DNA of 38,767 nt, from contig CAIWTU010000152.1 of the NCBI GenBank assembly GCA_903915655.1, positions 1 through 38,767 on the forward strand, in the 5' to 3' direction. Origin of the DNA: an uncultured Geobacter sp. (GTDB lineage: Bacteria > Desulfobacterota > Desulfuromonadia > Geobacterales > Geobacteraceae). Made by a program: the position numbers and the translations under genes. The stretch's first letter is position 1, and every line of letters begins with the position of its first letter. The notes under the pieces are model-generated. The model saw only the letters and a program-made list of their open reading frames with translations. It was not told where the DNA came from and did no database searches. Shown piece by piece: positions 30,203-38,340 of this stretch.

Positions 30203-31552
30203 ATGTCTACGTTCGACGCAAAAAAACTACCCCCGCAGAGTATTGAAGCGGAGATGTCCATTCTTGGCGGTATCCTCCTTGAGAACGAAGCGATAAACCG
30301 TGTTCTTGATCTTCTTGTGCCGGAGGATTTCTATCGAGAGACCCATCGGAAGATTATGCGCGCGATGATCGAACTCAATGAGCATAGGGAGCCGTGCGAT
30401 CTTATAACAATGACGACGATACTGAAAAAGCGCGGTGACCTTGAAGAGGTCGGCGGCGGCGCCTATCTTGCGACCCTGGTCGATTTCGTTCCGACCGCAG
30501 CCAATATCGCTTACTACAGCAAAATCGTCAAGGAAAAGGCCATTCTTCGCACCCTGATTTCCGCAGCAACCGAAATAATTACACAGGGTTATGACGCGCG
30601 GGTCGAGATCGAAGAACTTCTCGATATGGCACAAAAGACCATCTTTGATATTTCCGAAAACAAGCTGAAGCCTGCATATTACCAGGTCAGCGCCTTACTT
30701 AAAGAGACCATAAAAAATATTGAGGCATTGTACGAAAAGAAGGATCACGTTACCGGTGTTCCGACCGGCTATTTTGATCTTGATGAGAAAACGGCGGGAT
30801 TCCAGCGTGGTGATCTGGTTATTATTGCAGGGCGACCCTCTATGGGTAAAACAGCCTTTGCCCTCAATATTGCCCAGTATGCAGCTATCCATGCCGAGCC
30901 GAATCAGGCGGTTGCTCTTTTTTCCCTCGAAATGAGTAAAGAGCAACTGGTGACCCGTCTTCTCTGTTCAGAAGCTAGGGTCGATGCCAGCCGTCTCCGT
31001 ACCGGCCATCTTATCGAAACAGACTGGCATAAGCTCACGCGCGGCGCCAGTGCACTCCACGAGGCAAAGATATTCATTGACGACACCCCGGCAATCTCCG
31101 TATTGGAAATGCGCGCCAAATCCCGGAGGCTGAAGGCCGAGCACAATGTCGGTATGATTGTTGTCGATTATCTCCAGTTGATGCGCGGCGGGAGCAACCC
31201 CGAATCCCGCCAGCAGGAGATTTCAGAAATATCCCGCTCTCTTAAGGCGCTGGCAAAAGAGCTGAATGTCCCGGTTGTAGCTCTCTCCCAGCTGAATAGA
31301 GGGTTGGAGAGCCGGACAGATAAACGCCCTATGATGAGCGATCTGCGCGAGTCGGGTGCAATCGAACAGGATGCCGACGTTATCATGTTCGTTTATCGTG
31401 AAGAGGTCTATGACAAGGAAAATCCGGAGCTCAAAGGGAAGGCCGAAATTATTATCGGTAAGCAGAGAAACGGCCCTATCGGCACGGTAAACCTTGCCTT
31501 CCTCGGTGAGTACACGCGCTTTGAAAGCTTGAGCATCAGGTCGGACAACTGA
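30203..31552 (+). CDS. dnaB: Replicative DNA helicase DnaB
   Basis: This hexameric fork helicase is 449 aa. The N-terminal domain (about 10-115, PPQSIEAEMSILGG) binds primase, and the RecA-type motor has Walker A GRPSMGKT (210-217) and the VDYLQLM motif of Walker B. No intein interrupts the Walker A region, a frequent intein site. AGGAA lies shortly before the ATG. Confidence 0.97.
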   Translation: MSTFDAKKLPPQSIEAEMSILGGILLENEAINRVLDLLVPEDFYRETHRKIMRAMIELNEHREPCDLITMTTILKKRGDLEEVGGGAYLATLVDFVPTAANIAYYSKIVKEKAILRTLISAATEIITQGYDARVEIEELLDMAQKTIFDISENKLKPAYYQVSALLKETIKNIEALYEKKDHVTGVPTGYFDLDEKTAGFQRGDLVIIAGRPSMGKTAFALNIAQYAAIHAEPNQAVALFSLEMSKEQLVTRLLCSEARVDASRLRTGHLIETDWHKLTRGASALHEAKIFIDDTPAISVLEMRAKSRRLKAEHNVGMIVVDYLQLMRGGSNPESRQQEISEISRSLKALAKELNVPVVALSQLNRGLESRTDKRPMMSDLRESGAIEQDADVIMFVYREEVYDKENPELKGKAEIIIGKQRNGPIGTVNLAFLGEYTRFESLSIRSDN

Positions 31553-31622: not shown

Positions 31623-32417
31623 ATGATAGATTCAACAGCCCGCATCAGTTCGACTGCCAGGATAGCGCCTGATGCAGAGATAGGTCCCAATGTGATTGTC
31701 GGCGAAAATTCCATTGTCGGCAGTGGGACGAAAATCATGGCAAACGCAGTAATTGGGCCATGGACGACGATCGGGCGTAATAATGAAATTCATTACGGCG
31801 CCATAGTTGGGCACGATCCACAGGATTTCGGCTACAAGGGTGAAGAAAATTACGTCAGGATCGGCGACGGCAATATTATCCGTGAATATGTAACCATCCA
31901 TCGAGGGAATCGCGAGGGGACTTCAACCGTAATAGGCGACAACAATTTTTTAATGATTCAGTCCCATGTTGCGCATAATTGCATAATCGGGAACAATGTT
32001 ATCGTGGCAGGCGGATCACTTCTGGCGGGACATGTCACTATTGAAGACCGGGCCATTATTTCCGGGAACTGCGTCGTACACCAGTTCTGTCGTATCGGTC
32101 AATTCGCCATGATGCGGGGTCTCTCGCGAACCTCCAGGGATGTTCCCCCCTTCTGTATAATGGATGAAACGCACACCATCAAGACCCTTAATCTGGTCGG
32201 ACTCCGCCGAAACGGCTTTGGGCTTGAGAGGGTACGGGCAATAAAGAATGCTTTCGTGGAGCTGTTCCGTGGCGGTATGAACATGCGCAAAAATGTTGAA
32301 AAGGTTGAAGCGGAACTGGAGATAACCGAAGATGTCCGCTATCTGCTAGATTTCATCAAGAGCTCCAAGAGAGGCGTCTGTTTCGGGAAAGGCGTATCCA
32401 ATAAAGAGTTTGAATAA
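31623..32417 (+). CDS. lpxA: LpxA-type acyl-ACP:UDP-GlcNAc O-acyltransferase
   Basis: The 264-aa left-handed beta-helix protein has repeated hexapeptides (IAPDAE, IGPNVI, IGDNNF and similar) through about residue 185 and a helical C-terminus. Catalytic His118 aligns with E. coli His125 (SHVAHN), His137 with His144 and His153 with His160. The segment after VHQF reads MMRGLSRT where E. coli has MVGGCSGV. This segment lines the acyl-chain pocket, so chain-length preference may differ. The gene is not beside lpxD, fabZ or lpxB, so it may be a second copy. AAGGAGAGG precedes the ATG. Confidence 0.85.
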   Translation: MIDSTARISSTARIAPDAEIGPNVIVGENSIVGSGTKIMANAVIGPWTTIGRNNEIHYGAIVGHDPQDFGYKGEENYVRIGDGNIIREYVTIHRGNREGTSTVIGDNNFLMIQSHVAHNCIIGNNVIVAGGSLLAGHVTIEDRAIISGNCVVHQFCRIGQFAMMRGLSRTSRDVPPFCIMDETHTIKTLNLVGLRRNGFGLERVRAIKNAFVELFRGGMNMRKNVEKVEAELEITEDVRYLLDFIKSSKRGVCFGKGVSNKEFE

Positions 32418-32468
32418 AAGGATTGTCAGAAAATAACAGCTGACAGGCCCTGAATAAAAGGGGGGAAT

Positions 32469-33782
32469 ATGACCAGATATAATCCTATGAGAGAAATCCC
32501 CGCCCCTGCGGGTTATAAGGAAGGTGACGTTTTTGTCCTCTTCGGTGAACTGTTTGGCCGGGGGTATGCCAATGGCATCGTTGAAGAAGCCCGCCGTGCA
32601 GGGATGACGGTGCTTGGCATTACCGTAGGTCGACGTGATGCCGGCGGAATCCTCCGTTCCCTGACCGACGAGGAACTCGCGGAAGCGGAAGCTAATCTCG
32701 GCGGCAGAATAATCAATATCCCCCTGGAGGCAGGTTTTGATATGGAACCTGGAACCTCAGCGCTATCCCCGGTCGAGCGGCTTAAAGGGGTGAAGACCGA
32801 TGAGTGGGACAAGGTGCAGCTCGACTGGGAAGCGATAGAGCAATCGCGGCTCTCCGGAATAAAGCGCTTTACCGATAATCTGGCTGCCGTTGTGGCCGAG
32901 CTTGATGCCGCAATCCCGGAGGGGGTGAATCTCCTTTTTGCGCACACTATGGCTGGAGGGATCCCCCGCGCCAGGATTTATATGCCGCTTCTCAACCGGA
33001 TTTTCAAGGGACAGGGGGACCGCTATCTCCCTTCGGAGCTGTTCTGGAAGTCGGATCTCGGCAGGTTGTGCGGCTTAAGCTTTGACGAGGTAACGGCCAA
33101 CACCTTCAGCCATCTTATGACCGCCACAACAGCGCTGAGGGAAAAAATAACCTCCGGGAAAGGCCGGGTCAGCTATGTCGCCTACTGCTACCATGGCTGC
33201 GAGGTACTGATCAACGGCGACTATACCTGGCAGTCATACGCGCCTTATCTCCAGGGGTGGGCCAAGATGCTTCTGGAAGATGTTGCACTAGAGGCCTGGA
33301 AAAAGGGGGTGAAGGCAACGGTCTTCAACTGTCCAGAGATCCAGACAAACTCGAGTGCCCTTTTCCTTGGGGTGGAACTGTCGCTCTATCCTCTGCTGAC
33401 GGCCCTGGAACTGGAGGGGGGGGGGGCGCGAGCGCGGGAGATCCGGGAAAATTGCAAGACCCTCCTTAAGGACGGGTCGACGCTCGAAGAGCTGCTTGCC
33501 GGGGCTGAAAGCTATCTTTCCAGTCCGGAACTGGCGAATTTCATGGATCTAGCAAGGTGGCCCCGGCACAATACCGCCGCACAGTCCGAGCAGATGCTGA
33601 CCTCGGCGACCAGGCTGCTGGAGATGAACCGGGACCCTAAAGAAATCGTCTGTGCGGTTCTTTCCCGTGAGGTTTTCCGCGCGGTTGGCGCGCTGATGTT
33701 TAAAACCGCCTGGAAGCCTGAAGCTCCCCTCTTCTGGCTCAATCATGATATCTGCGCCAGGCAGATTGTTGCAGAGGGGTGA
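32469..33782 (+). CDS. Conserved 437-aa protein, possibly an enoyl-ACP-reductase-like enzyme
   Basis: I recall similar proteins annotated as FabMG-family enoyl-ACP reductases, but I am not sure of that label. Visible support includes a Gly-rich Rossmann-like start (VFVLFGELFGRGYANG at 21-36, then a strand ending in GRRD). A second strand-turn, LLFAHTMAGGIPRA, lies at 155-168. A Tyr257-x8-Lys266 pair (YAPYLQGWAK) matches the spacing of FabV-type reductases. It follows the LpxA-type gene by 51 bases, which fits a lipid or lipid A role by position only. An unbroken run of 11 G (33416-33426) lies in the coding sequence. GGGGGG precedes the ATG. Confidence 0.55.
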   Translation: MTRYNPMREIPAPAGYKEGDVFVLFGELFGRGYANGIVEEARRAGMTVLGITVGRRDAGGILRSLTDEELAEAEANLGGRIINIPLEAGFDMEPGTSALSPVERLKGVKTDEWDKVQLDWEAIEQSRLSGIKRFTDNLAAVVAELDAAIPEGVNLLFAHTMAGGIPRARIYMPLLNRIFKGQGDRYLPSELFWKSDLGRLCGLSFDEVTANTFSHLMTATTALREKITSGKGRVSYVAYCYHGCEVLINGDYTWQSYAPYLQGWAKMLLEDVALEAWKKGVKATVFNCPEIQTNSSALFLGVELSLYPLLTALELEGGGARAREIRENCKTLLKDGSTLEELLAGAESYLSSPELANFMDLARWPRHNTAAQSEQMLTSATRLLEMNRDPKEIVCAVLSREVFRAVGALMFKTAWKPEAPLFWLNHDICARQIVAEG

Positions 33783-36173: not shown

Positions 36174-36215
36174 CTACTGAATTGAATGGTATTAATGACT
36201 GTAAGAGGTGATGCG

Positions 36216-37238
36216 ATGAAATATGTACAACTCGGCAAGACAGCACTGACGGTTTCAGAATGCGGATTCGGGTGCATTCCCATTATCCGTTTATCTAAAG
36301 AAGAAACAGGAGAGGTTCTCCGACATGCTTTCGAGCGAGGAATCACCTATTTCGATACAGCAAACGCCTATCGCGACAGCGAAGAGAAAATCGGGATGGC
36401 GTTTAACGGCATACGTGACAAAGTGGTCATTGCCACGAAGAGTCTGAAGCGTAATGCGGAAGGCATTACAGAACAAATGGAAAACAGCCTGCGGATGTTG
36501 CGGACAGATTATATCGACCTGTACCAATTTCATCAGATTGCCCAGGAAAAGGATTGGCAAGAAGTGACCGGTGCATCCGGTGCGCTAGAGGCGGTCATGA
36601 AGGCCAAGTCTGCTGGAAAAGTCAGGCACATCGGCGTGACCTCTCACAATCTGCAGATGGCCCTCAAAATGGTGCGCAGCGGCCTTTTCGATACAATTCA
36701 GTTCCCCTTCAACCTGATCGAGGAGGGGGCAAAGGACGAACTGATCGGCGCTGCGCATGAAGCAGGAATGGGCTTTATCTGCATGAAGCCGTTCGGGGGT
36801 GGGGTTATCAACAATGCCGCGGTTGCGTTCAAGTATCTGCGGGACAATGCCGGAGTAATACCGATTCCCGGCTTCGAGTCATCTGAACAGGTGGATGAGA
36901 TCATTTCATTCTATGCACAACCAAATGAAATCACCGACCGGGACCGAGAGATCATGGGTGATTATCGGAATGAGTTGGGCAAGAGATTCTGCCGACGCTG
37001 CGAGTATTGCCAGCCTTGCCCCCAAGGAGTAATGATCACACCGGCCATGGGCTACCCGATTGTCGCTGCCAGGATGTCCCCGTCGGTTGCCGTTGAATTC
37101 TGCAAGATACCGATGGAGAGCGTGCTGCTCTGCACCGACTGCGGTACATGCCTGGCGCGTTGCCCGTATGAATTGAAAATTCCTGATATTCTCAAAGCTA
37201 ATTACGCTCTATATGAAAAGCATCTGAAGGGTAAATAA
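36216..37238 (+). CDS. Aldo/keto reductase with C-terminal 4Fe-4S ferredoxin-like motifs
   Basis: The 340-aa protein has a TIM-barrel AKR domain with the tetrad Asp47, Tyr52 (FDTANAY), Lys75 (VIATK) and His106 (YQFHQ). It is followed by two Cys motifs, CxxCxxCxxCP at 259-269 and CxxCxxCxxxCP at 306-317. These suggest one or two iron-sulfur clusters that could pass electrons to the barrel. Such fusions are common in anaerobes. The substrate is unknown. The ATG at 36216 follows AAGAGGTG. An ATG 30 bases upstream precedes that site and is rejected. Confidence 0.87.
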   Translation: MKYVQLGKTALTVSECGFGCIPIIRLSKEETGEVLRHAFERGITYFDTANAYRDSEEKIGMAFNGIRDKVVIATKSLKRNAEGITEQMENSLRMLRTDYIDLYQFHQIAQEKDWQEVTGASGALEAVMKAKSAGKVRHIGVTSHNLQMALKMVRSGLFDTIQFPFNLIEEGAKDELIGAAHEAGMGFICMKPFGGGVINNAAVAFKYLRDNAGVIPIPGFESSEQVDEIISFYAQPNEITDRDREIMGDYRNELGKRFCRRCEYCQPCPQGVMITPAMGYPIVAARMSPSVAVEFCKIPMESVLLCTDCGTCLARCPYELKIPDILKANYALYEKHLKGK

Positions 37239-37970: not shown

Positions 37971-38340
37971 TGGACCCCAAATTCTGGACAATAGTTTAAA
38001 GTGTAGCCTGCGGTAAAAAGGAGCAGGCAATGAGCGAAAAAAGTCGTAAAAGTTTCACTAGTCAGCACAAAGCAAAAGTCGCACTCGAAGCGATCCGAGG
38101 CACCAAGACTTTAAATGAAATCGCCCAAGAATTTGCCGTCCATCCGAACCAAGTTGGGGATTGGAAAAGATTATTTCTGTCACAAGCGCCTGGGATTTTC
38201 GACAGCAAGCGCGGTCCCAAGCCCGATGATCCGTCTGCCAGTCCCGAGCGGCTCTACTCGGAAATCGGGCGGTTGAAGATGGAATTGGACTGGCTTAAAA
38301 AAAGTCCGGGATTGGCCTCTAGATGACCAAAGCACGGCCA
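37971..38340 (+). mobile_element. Partial IS3-type insertion sequence (left end and orfA only)
   Basis: The left end probably begins at TGGACCCC (37971) and orfA follows. orfB, with the DDE catalytic domain, is missing: shortly after the orfA stop the sequence changes to the upstream region of a different transposase. The right boundary near 38340 is approximate, and no right terminal repeat was found. Confidence 0.65.
38030..38326 (+). CDS. IS3-type transposase OrfA (helix-turn-helix protein)
   Basis: The 98-aa protein has the IS3-family OrfA plan. A basic N-terminus and a helix-turn-helix (KVALEAIRGTKTLNEIAQEF) are followed by the HPNQVGDWK segment and a C-terminal leucine-zipper-like region (YSEIGRLKMELDWLKK). 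AAGGAG lies 6 bases before the ATG. Near the end an A7 run followed by G (38297-38304) is the kind of slippery site at which these elements shift by -1 to make OrfAB. Here there is no orfB to join, so the element is defective. Confidence 0.85.
   Translation: MSEKSRKSFTSQHKAKVALEAIRGTKTLNEIAQEFAVHPNQVGDWKRLFLSQAPGIFDSKRGPKPDDPSASPERLYSEIGRLKMELDWLKKSPGLASR

Follow-up and report, generated by a model that had tools for sequence, protein, structure and literature searches.

A second lpxA gene of Geobacteraceae, located next to fabMG, occurs only together with gnnA in the genomes sampled

We found that an uncultured Geobacter sp. carries, besides its canonical lpxA (hereafter designated lpxA1), a second LpxA-type gene (lpxA2) that was observed, among the related genomes surveyed, only where gnnA is also present. 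These genes, together with the finding that LpxA2 depends on gnnA but not the reverse, suggest, with about an even chance, that LpxA2 is a specialised part of a two-track lipid A pathway, in which LpxA2 would act on UDP-GlcNAc3N and LpxA1 on UDP-GlcNAc. The whole stretch of DNA that was analysed (38,767 nucleotides; hereafter the window) is held by contig C152 of a 3.36-Mb genome. As indicated by the open reading frames and the reading of the locus, lpxA2 (31623–32417, forward strand; 264 amino acids) is placed between dnaB on the upstream side (30203–31552, forward strand) and, after a gap of 51 bases, a gene encoding a protein of 437 amino acids, identified below as fabMG (32469–33782, forward strand). 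The positions and lengths of the two ORFs and the gap between them, as given in an earlier sequence-only reading of this DNA, were confirmed in the ORF list, and the absence of lpxD, fabZ, and lpxB from the neighbourhood of the LpxA-type gene, also described there, was borne out. The closest named records for the lpxA2-fabMG locus are those of Geobacteraceae, including Geomobilimonas luticola and Geobacter sp. AOG1. When plasmid records were searched with the stretch upstream of lpxA2, the best 5 of 434 records matched the dnaB end only. Elsewhere in the window, positions 36186–37238 encode an aldo/keto reductase whose C-terminal part matches a 4Fe-4S dicluster family barely above the Pfam cut-off, and positions 38030–38326, 441 bases from the window end, encode a 98-residue protein, which by eye resembles an IS3-type transposase OrfA and gave no Pfam match at 1e-8.

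LpxA2 exceeded both of the NCBIfam LpxA equivalog cut-offs over its full length, scoring 289.8 bits against TIGR01852 (cut-off, 231.05) and 301.6 bits against NF003657 (cut-off, 226), and it also matched LpxA structures in the PDB. In the alignment (E. coli numbering), the active-site residues Q73, D74, H122, H125, H144, H160, and Q161 are all kept. H125 is presumably the general base of E. coli LpxA, and we likewise assume a role for D126; the corresponding residues of LpxA2 are H118 and N119, whose codons lie at 31974–31979 (forward strand). The segment following the VHQF motif, in which the sequence-only reading had noticed changes, is indeed altered, with Arg at 172 and 176, Asn at 205, and a gap at column 191, and further pocket changes are D126N and K76G, the Asn at column 126 being common to 18 of 18 LpxA2 rows aligned. 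As judged from these matches, the lpxA2 product is most likely a working LpxA-type acyltransferase. The canonical LpxA1 proteins of the same genomes belong to the same family and have the same active-site histidines, whereas LpxA2 differs from them in its low identity (42% to LpxA1 of the same genome), in its separate clade, and in D126N, K76G, R172, and R176. The second-best PDB match of LpxA2 was the LpxA of Leptospira interrogans (3hsq), which we take to be selective for UDP-GlcNAc3N; in both proteins column 76 is Gly and column 176 is basic, but the Leptospira enzyme keeps D126, unlike LpxA2, and branches outside the LpxA2 group in the tree.

In the LpxA tree (87 rows; 16 rows were thinned out before building), the LpxA2 of Geobacteraceae clusters with stand-alone LpxA2 of Desulfuromonadales (support, 100/97), apart from LpxA1 of both groups, and the LpxA of Bacteroides fragilis joins this clade on a long branch (94/91). 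The separate LpxA2 clade rules out a recent duplication of lpxA1 as the origin of LpxA2. By this grouping with the Desulfuromonadales proteins, apart from LpxA1, LpxA2 is identified as either an old paralogue or an old acquisition. A second lpxA of Geobacter sulfurreducens was already noted in 2010 (PMC3087551, in the excerpt available).

A search of the genome for another lpxA, as the sequence-only reading had proposed, revealed the canonical copy between fabZ and gnnA (G000:C26:31223–31984), showing that the stand-alone gene is not the sole lpxA, a condition under which that reading would have counted against itself. The gene order on this contig is lpxD-fabZ-lpxA1-gnnA-gnnB-(RCC1-like)-lpxB-msbA. 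The best PDB match of GnnA was 7bvj (E = 6.3e-67; next match, 2.4e-23), which is, we assume, the GnnA of Acidithiobacillus, and its best NCBIfam model was that of UDP-GlcNAc 3-dehydrogenase (NF040723), with a score below the cut-off (233.7 against 450 bits); the name of this model says archaeal, and it may thus not fit here. GnnB is a sugar aminotransferase with WbpE second among its PDB matches. From these matches, the gnnA and gnnB products are expected to convert UDP-GlcNAc into UDP-GlcNAc3N. The protein encoded between gnnB and lpxB (L068:10197–11420, on the same contig) appears by eye to be an RCC1-like repeat protein, and a similar one occupies the same place in G011, G026, and G029. The genome also has an additional, isolated LpxD-like gene (G000:C33:15457–16488; locus L069:5457–6488), with genes for an Fe-S protein and a radical-SAM protein (by eye) as neighbours, and several relatives have more than one LpxD-type match; this doubling of LpxD may belong to the same two-track lipid A idea.

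The 437-residue protein encoded downstream of lpxA2, which had been thought to resemble no common enoyl reductase, turned out to be a full-length member of the enoyl-ACP reductase family FabMG. Thus, its residues 4–433 matched positions 2–431 of the 431-position Pfam model PF22046 (663.7 bits, E = 1.5e-199; gathering cut-off, 27 bits), which was the only Pfam family listed for the protein at E values up to 1, a FabV profile match being absent, and the FabMG structures 6ki9 and 6kia aligned over residues 6–433 (E = 1.9e-142). In the part of the alignment counted, 172 of 306 residues are identical to those of 6ki9. Identity as FabV or FabI was rejected on the Pfam, NCBIfam, and PDB searches. The FabV-like Tyr-x8-Lys pair proposed in the sequence-only reading has to be replaced by a Yx5K pair, Y260 and K266 (codons at 33246–33266, forward strand), which carry the same numbers in 6ki9; the Yx8K motif starting from Tyr257 merely overlaps it. 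According to a review, FabMG came to light in a soil metagenome, as a clone conferring triclosan resistance, and was shown with bound NADH and the Yx5K pair, and the metagenomic enzyme complements an E. coli fabI(Ts) mutant, an ability lost with Y260F or K266A (PMC9260719, in the excerpt available). Elsewhere in the Geobacter genome, we found a FabI-like protein, for which the 12 best NCBIfam models were all FabI, the top five giving 317.5–328.3 bits, below their cut-offs of 337–452. The best match in the genome to the FabK model TIGR03151 reached 120.2 of 453.1 bits, with nothing near the cut-off, and a search with the FabV family PF12242 gave no match in the genome and none in the control genomes either. 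Because a FabI-like protein is present and no match comes near the FabK cut-off, this genome seems to encode two enoyl reductases, FabMG being one of them.

The co-occurrence of LpxA2 and gnnA was analysed quantitatively in two overlapping sets of genomes. Among the 58 nearest genomes, gnnA was found in 37 and LpxA2 in 18, all of which were among the 37, with LpxA2 in none of the 21 without gnnA. In the sample of 195 genomes of the class, gnnA was found in 88 and LpxA2 in 29; gnnA was present in all of the 29, and the 107 genomes without gnnA yielded no LpxA2 (Fisher p = 4.6e-12, a value that ignores kinship). LpxA2 was called at scores of at least 269.8 bits (at least 49% identity), and the next matches, from 252.4 bits down, were taken as LpxA1; four of the first matches below this threshold (G194, G128, G177, and G212) were later read as LpxA1 loci. 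Similarly, gnnA was called at identities of at least 53% (next match, 32%), including the split genes of G149 and G214. In 35 of the 35 LpxA2 genomes with the locus read (three sets of 16, 18, and 1, with G024 left out), gnnB adjoins gnnA, and the two genes lie directly behind lpxA1. No report of the gnnAB link of a second LpxA in this bacterial group was found in the open-licence literature.

The dependence does not hold in the reverse direction, since 59 of the 88 gnnA genomes have no LpxA2, and consequently either LpxA1 suffices in these genomes or the product has a different fate. In four genomes, all without LpxA2 (G042, G047, G049, and G055; loci L305, L307, L308, and L311), gnnA lies beside lpxA1, but the stretch read gave no match for gnnB; a different aminotransferase may act there, or the 3-keto sugar may be used in some other way. 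In G214 gnnA is cut by the contig end. These cases make gnnA an imperfect proxy for the gnnA-gnnB pair. Incomplete assemblies may also hide genes, as in G021 (84% complete), with neither an LpxA2 nor a FabMG match, and 2 of the 195 class-sample genomes show no LpxA match at all. On a tree of LpxD, FabZ, and LpxB from 86 genomes, at least 15 state changes were counted for LpxA2 and 9 for gnnA. Among six supported independent contrasts, gnnA differed in parallel with LpxA2 in an average of 1.6, in the opposite way in 0.0, and not at all in 4.4; the informative contrasts are therefore all one way, with a median p of 0.5 that is not significant in a test devoid of power. Kinship may explain part of the absence of LpxA2 from the gnnA-less genomes.

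The choice of acceptor was also sought in individual residues of the LpxA proteins. Column 157 ranked first over all columns in 83 LpxA1 sequences, having Val, Ala, or Ile in 16 of 21 from genomes with gnnA and no LpxA2 against 1 of the 62 others, although it was picked after the fact and was not significant in tree-aware tests. A prediction for this column was written before 59 further genomes were read. As predicted, Val was found in 31 of 35 further genomes having gnnA without LpxA2, but it was also found in 14 of 23 without gnnA; these 14 are all the genomes of family f4, for which Ser, Thr, or Cys had been predicted. Column 157 thus failed out of sample as a specificity switch, with Val in 14 of 14 gnnA-less f4 genomes, and it is read as a lineage mark of this family. 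Similarly, column 71 has gnnA-type residues in 35 of 35 genomes that carry gnnA, yet 14 of the 23 lacking it have them too. The D126N replacement, suggested as a mark of an amine acceptor by the His-Asn in the LpxD of the genome itself, was dropped because Leptospira LpxA keeps Asp, and Asn126 is also present in LpxA rows of Synergistaceae, Vampirovibrionales, and Prochlorococcus. Indeed, none of the pocket differences K76G, D126N, R172, R176, and N205 was diagnostic. As the columns tested gave no residue evidence for which LpxA takes which sugar, the case for a substrate split is one of gene content.

In the mechanism that we propose, lpxA2 would provide a second entry into lipid A synthesis. 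GnnA and GnnB would turn UDP-GlcNAc into UDP-GlcNAc3N, one LpxA would attach a 3-hydroxyacyl chain as an ester to UDP-GlcNAc, the other would attach a 3-hydroxyacyl chain as an amide to UDP-GlcNAc3N, and the two products would lead to a mixed or hybrid lipid A, whereas FabMG would serve as an enoyl-ACP reductase of fatty acid synthesis, outside the LpxA2 route. The enzyme activities, the substrate split, and the lipid A structure are those that we infer from the gene content. Of the 58 nearest genomes, the 21 that lack gnnA have no LpxA match above the cut-off other than LpxA1, which should therefore take UDP-GlcNAc there; as LpxA2, in contrast, was not found without gnnA, it is LpxA2 that likely takes UDP-GlcNAc3N. 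The location of gnnAB in the LpxA1 operon, not beside lpxA2, and the score of GnnA below the NCBIfam cut-off speak against this explanation. A more specific form of it, which we consider possible but put somewhat short of an even chance, is that LpxA2 is a dedicated N-acyltransferase for UDP-GlcNAc3N, belonging to an old lineage of the Geobacter/Desulfuromonas class that is kept only with GnnAB, and that such a two-enzyme solution, like that of Capnocytophaga, was reached separately in betaproteobacteria.

In a reversed split, UDP-GlcNAc3N would receive its amide-linked chain from LpxA1, and the role of LpxA2 would be to restore ester formation on UDP-GlcNAc. The position of gnnA-gnnB directly behind lpxA1 in all LpxA2 genomes read fits this assignment, which predicts the same one-way dependence; we regard it as quite unlikely, however, as it needs a switch in the specificity of LpxA1, the only LpxA match above the cut-off in all 21 gnnA-less near relatives, and as the gnnAB-linked LpxA of betaproteobacteria is the extra one, though not closely related to LpxA2. 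Alternatively, both enzymes might use the same UDP-GlcNAc, with LpxA2 introducing a chain of other length, for example under other growth conditions, and the link to gnnAB would then reflect shared history. The acyl-ruler segment does differ, being G173/M176 in LpxA1 and G173/R176 with R172 in LpxA2, and column 176 is occupied in Leptospira LpxA by K171, which we take to be a C12 ruler. Moreover, the two LpxA of Segatella copri and of Psychrobacter cryohalolentis were read by their authors as a source of acyl-chain variety, GnnAB not being mentioned in the excerpts available. Such a chain variant is nevertheless unlikely, since it leaves unexplained why LpxA2 is absent from all of the gnnA-less genomes sampled, although kinship may cover part of this absence. 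Still less likely is a role of LpxA2 outside lipid A, in which it would acylate some other UDP-amino sugar destined for a different glycolipid or for a surface polysaccharide: lpxA2 lies inside a lipid A operon in none of the LpxA2 loci read, but the protein matches LpxA at the equivalog level with its active-site histidines intact, and gnnAB, the partner that it tracks, sits between lpxA1 and lpxB.

Finally, the sequence-only reading had proposed that lpxA2 and fabMG together could supply a special acyl chain for lipid A or another glycolipid. Besides the short distance between the two genes, this functional pairing is favoured by the 18 close LpxA2 loci (69–82% identity), in which fabMG follows lpxA2 in 16 and dnaB precedes it in 18. 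Among the 30 best fabMG loci, the window's own included, dnaB was present around fabMG in 26 and lpxA2 in 16, but dnaB and fabMG were neighbours without lpxA2 in 10, and in G007 lpxA2 is located behind dnaB with fabMG on a different contig. Thus, lpxA2 comes and goes within a broader neighbourhood formed by dnaB and fabMG. Over the class sample, FabMG was found in 96 of 97 genomes of one order, regardless of LpxA2, and in none of the 98 others, whereas LpxA2 was found in 11 and 18 of them, respectively; the check for conservation of the pair therefore turned out negative, FabMG not being found in 19 of the 29 LpxA2 genomes (the 18 that lie outside the order, plus G012, an assembly of 85% completeness). 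These results show that FabMG and LpxA2 have quite different ranges. LpxA takes (R)-3-hydroxyacyl-ACP, an intermediate drawn from the fatty-acid cycle ahead of enoyl reduction, and an enoyl reductase is accordingly no obvious dedicated partner of LpxA. Collectively, the 51-base pairing looks incidental, with FabMG a neighbour by position only, and joint work of the two genes is scarcely to be expected, while the other part of the earlier proposal, in which an additional LpxA carries out a special lipid A acylation, is retained as the best reading.

If the proposed assignment of LpxA2 to UDP-GlcNAc3N is true, these metal-reducing bacteria would begin lipid A synthesis by two parallel reactions, and an amide-linked, probably hybrid lipid A would be predicted in a group for which we found no description of lipid A in the open-licence literature. 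A second LpxA together with gnnAB would then be a genomic marker for lipid A of this type, and the naturally split LpxA pairs would allow the choice between a hydroxyl and an amine acceptor to be dissected.

Among the nearest matches outside the class, eight betaproteobacterial loci, mostly of Rhodocyclales, have an LpxA gene directly after gnnB, with gnnA also seen in seven, and a canonical lpxA beside lpxD-fabZ is also present in five of five such genomes searched. Since this gnnAB-linked LpxA forms a clade separate from LpxA2 in the tree, the betaproteobacterial arrangement seems to be convergent. In Capnocytophaga canimorsus, which has two lpxA genes with gnnA and gnnB, the lipid A was shown to have a hybrid GlcN3N-GlcN backbone, and the authors relate the pair of LpxAs to the presence of a single GlcN3N and a single GlcN in it (PMC3342949, in the excerpt available). 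The Geobacter genome thus shares with C. canimorsus (lpxA and lpxA') the presence of two LpxA genes, gnnA, and gnnB in one genome, but the latter belongs to another phylum, and in Geobacter lpxA2 stands alone behind dnaB with gnnAB in the LpxA1 operon, the likeness being one of gene content. A hybrid backbone is likewise described for the lipid A of Campylobacter jejuni (PMC7956469, in the excerpt available), and this case, compared by its backbone, speaks against a strict rule, as do the two LpxAs of Segatella and Psychrobacter noted above. The combination of two LpxA with GnnAB is therefore of a kind already known from Capnocytophaga, and FabMG is a known family, whose metagenomic representative is a soil clone, whereas here it is a chromosomal gene of nearly every sampled genome of one order, to which it was restricted in the class sample. 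This order is at least one standing home of the enzyme known from the metagenomic clone.
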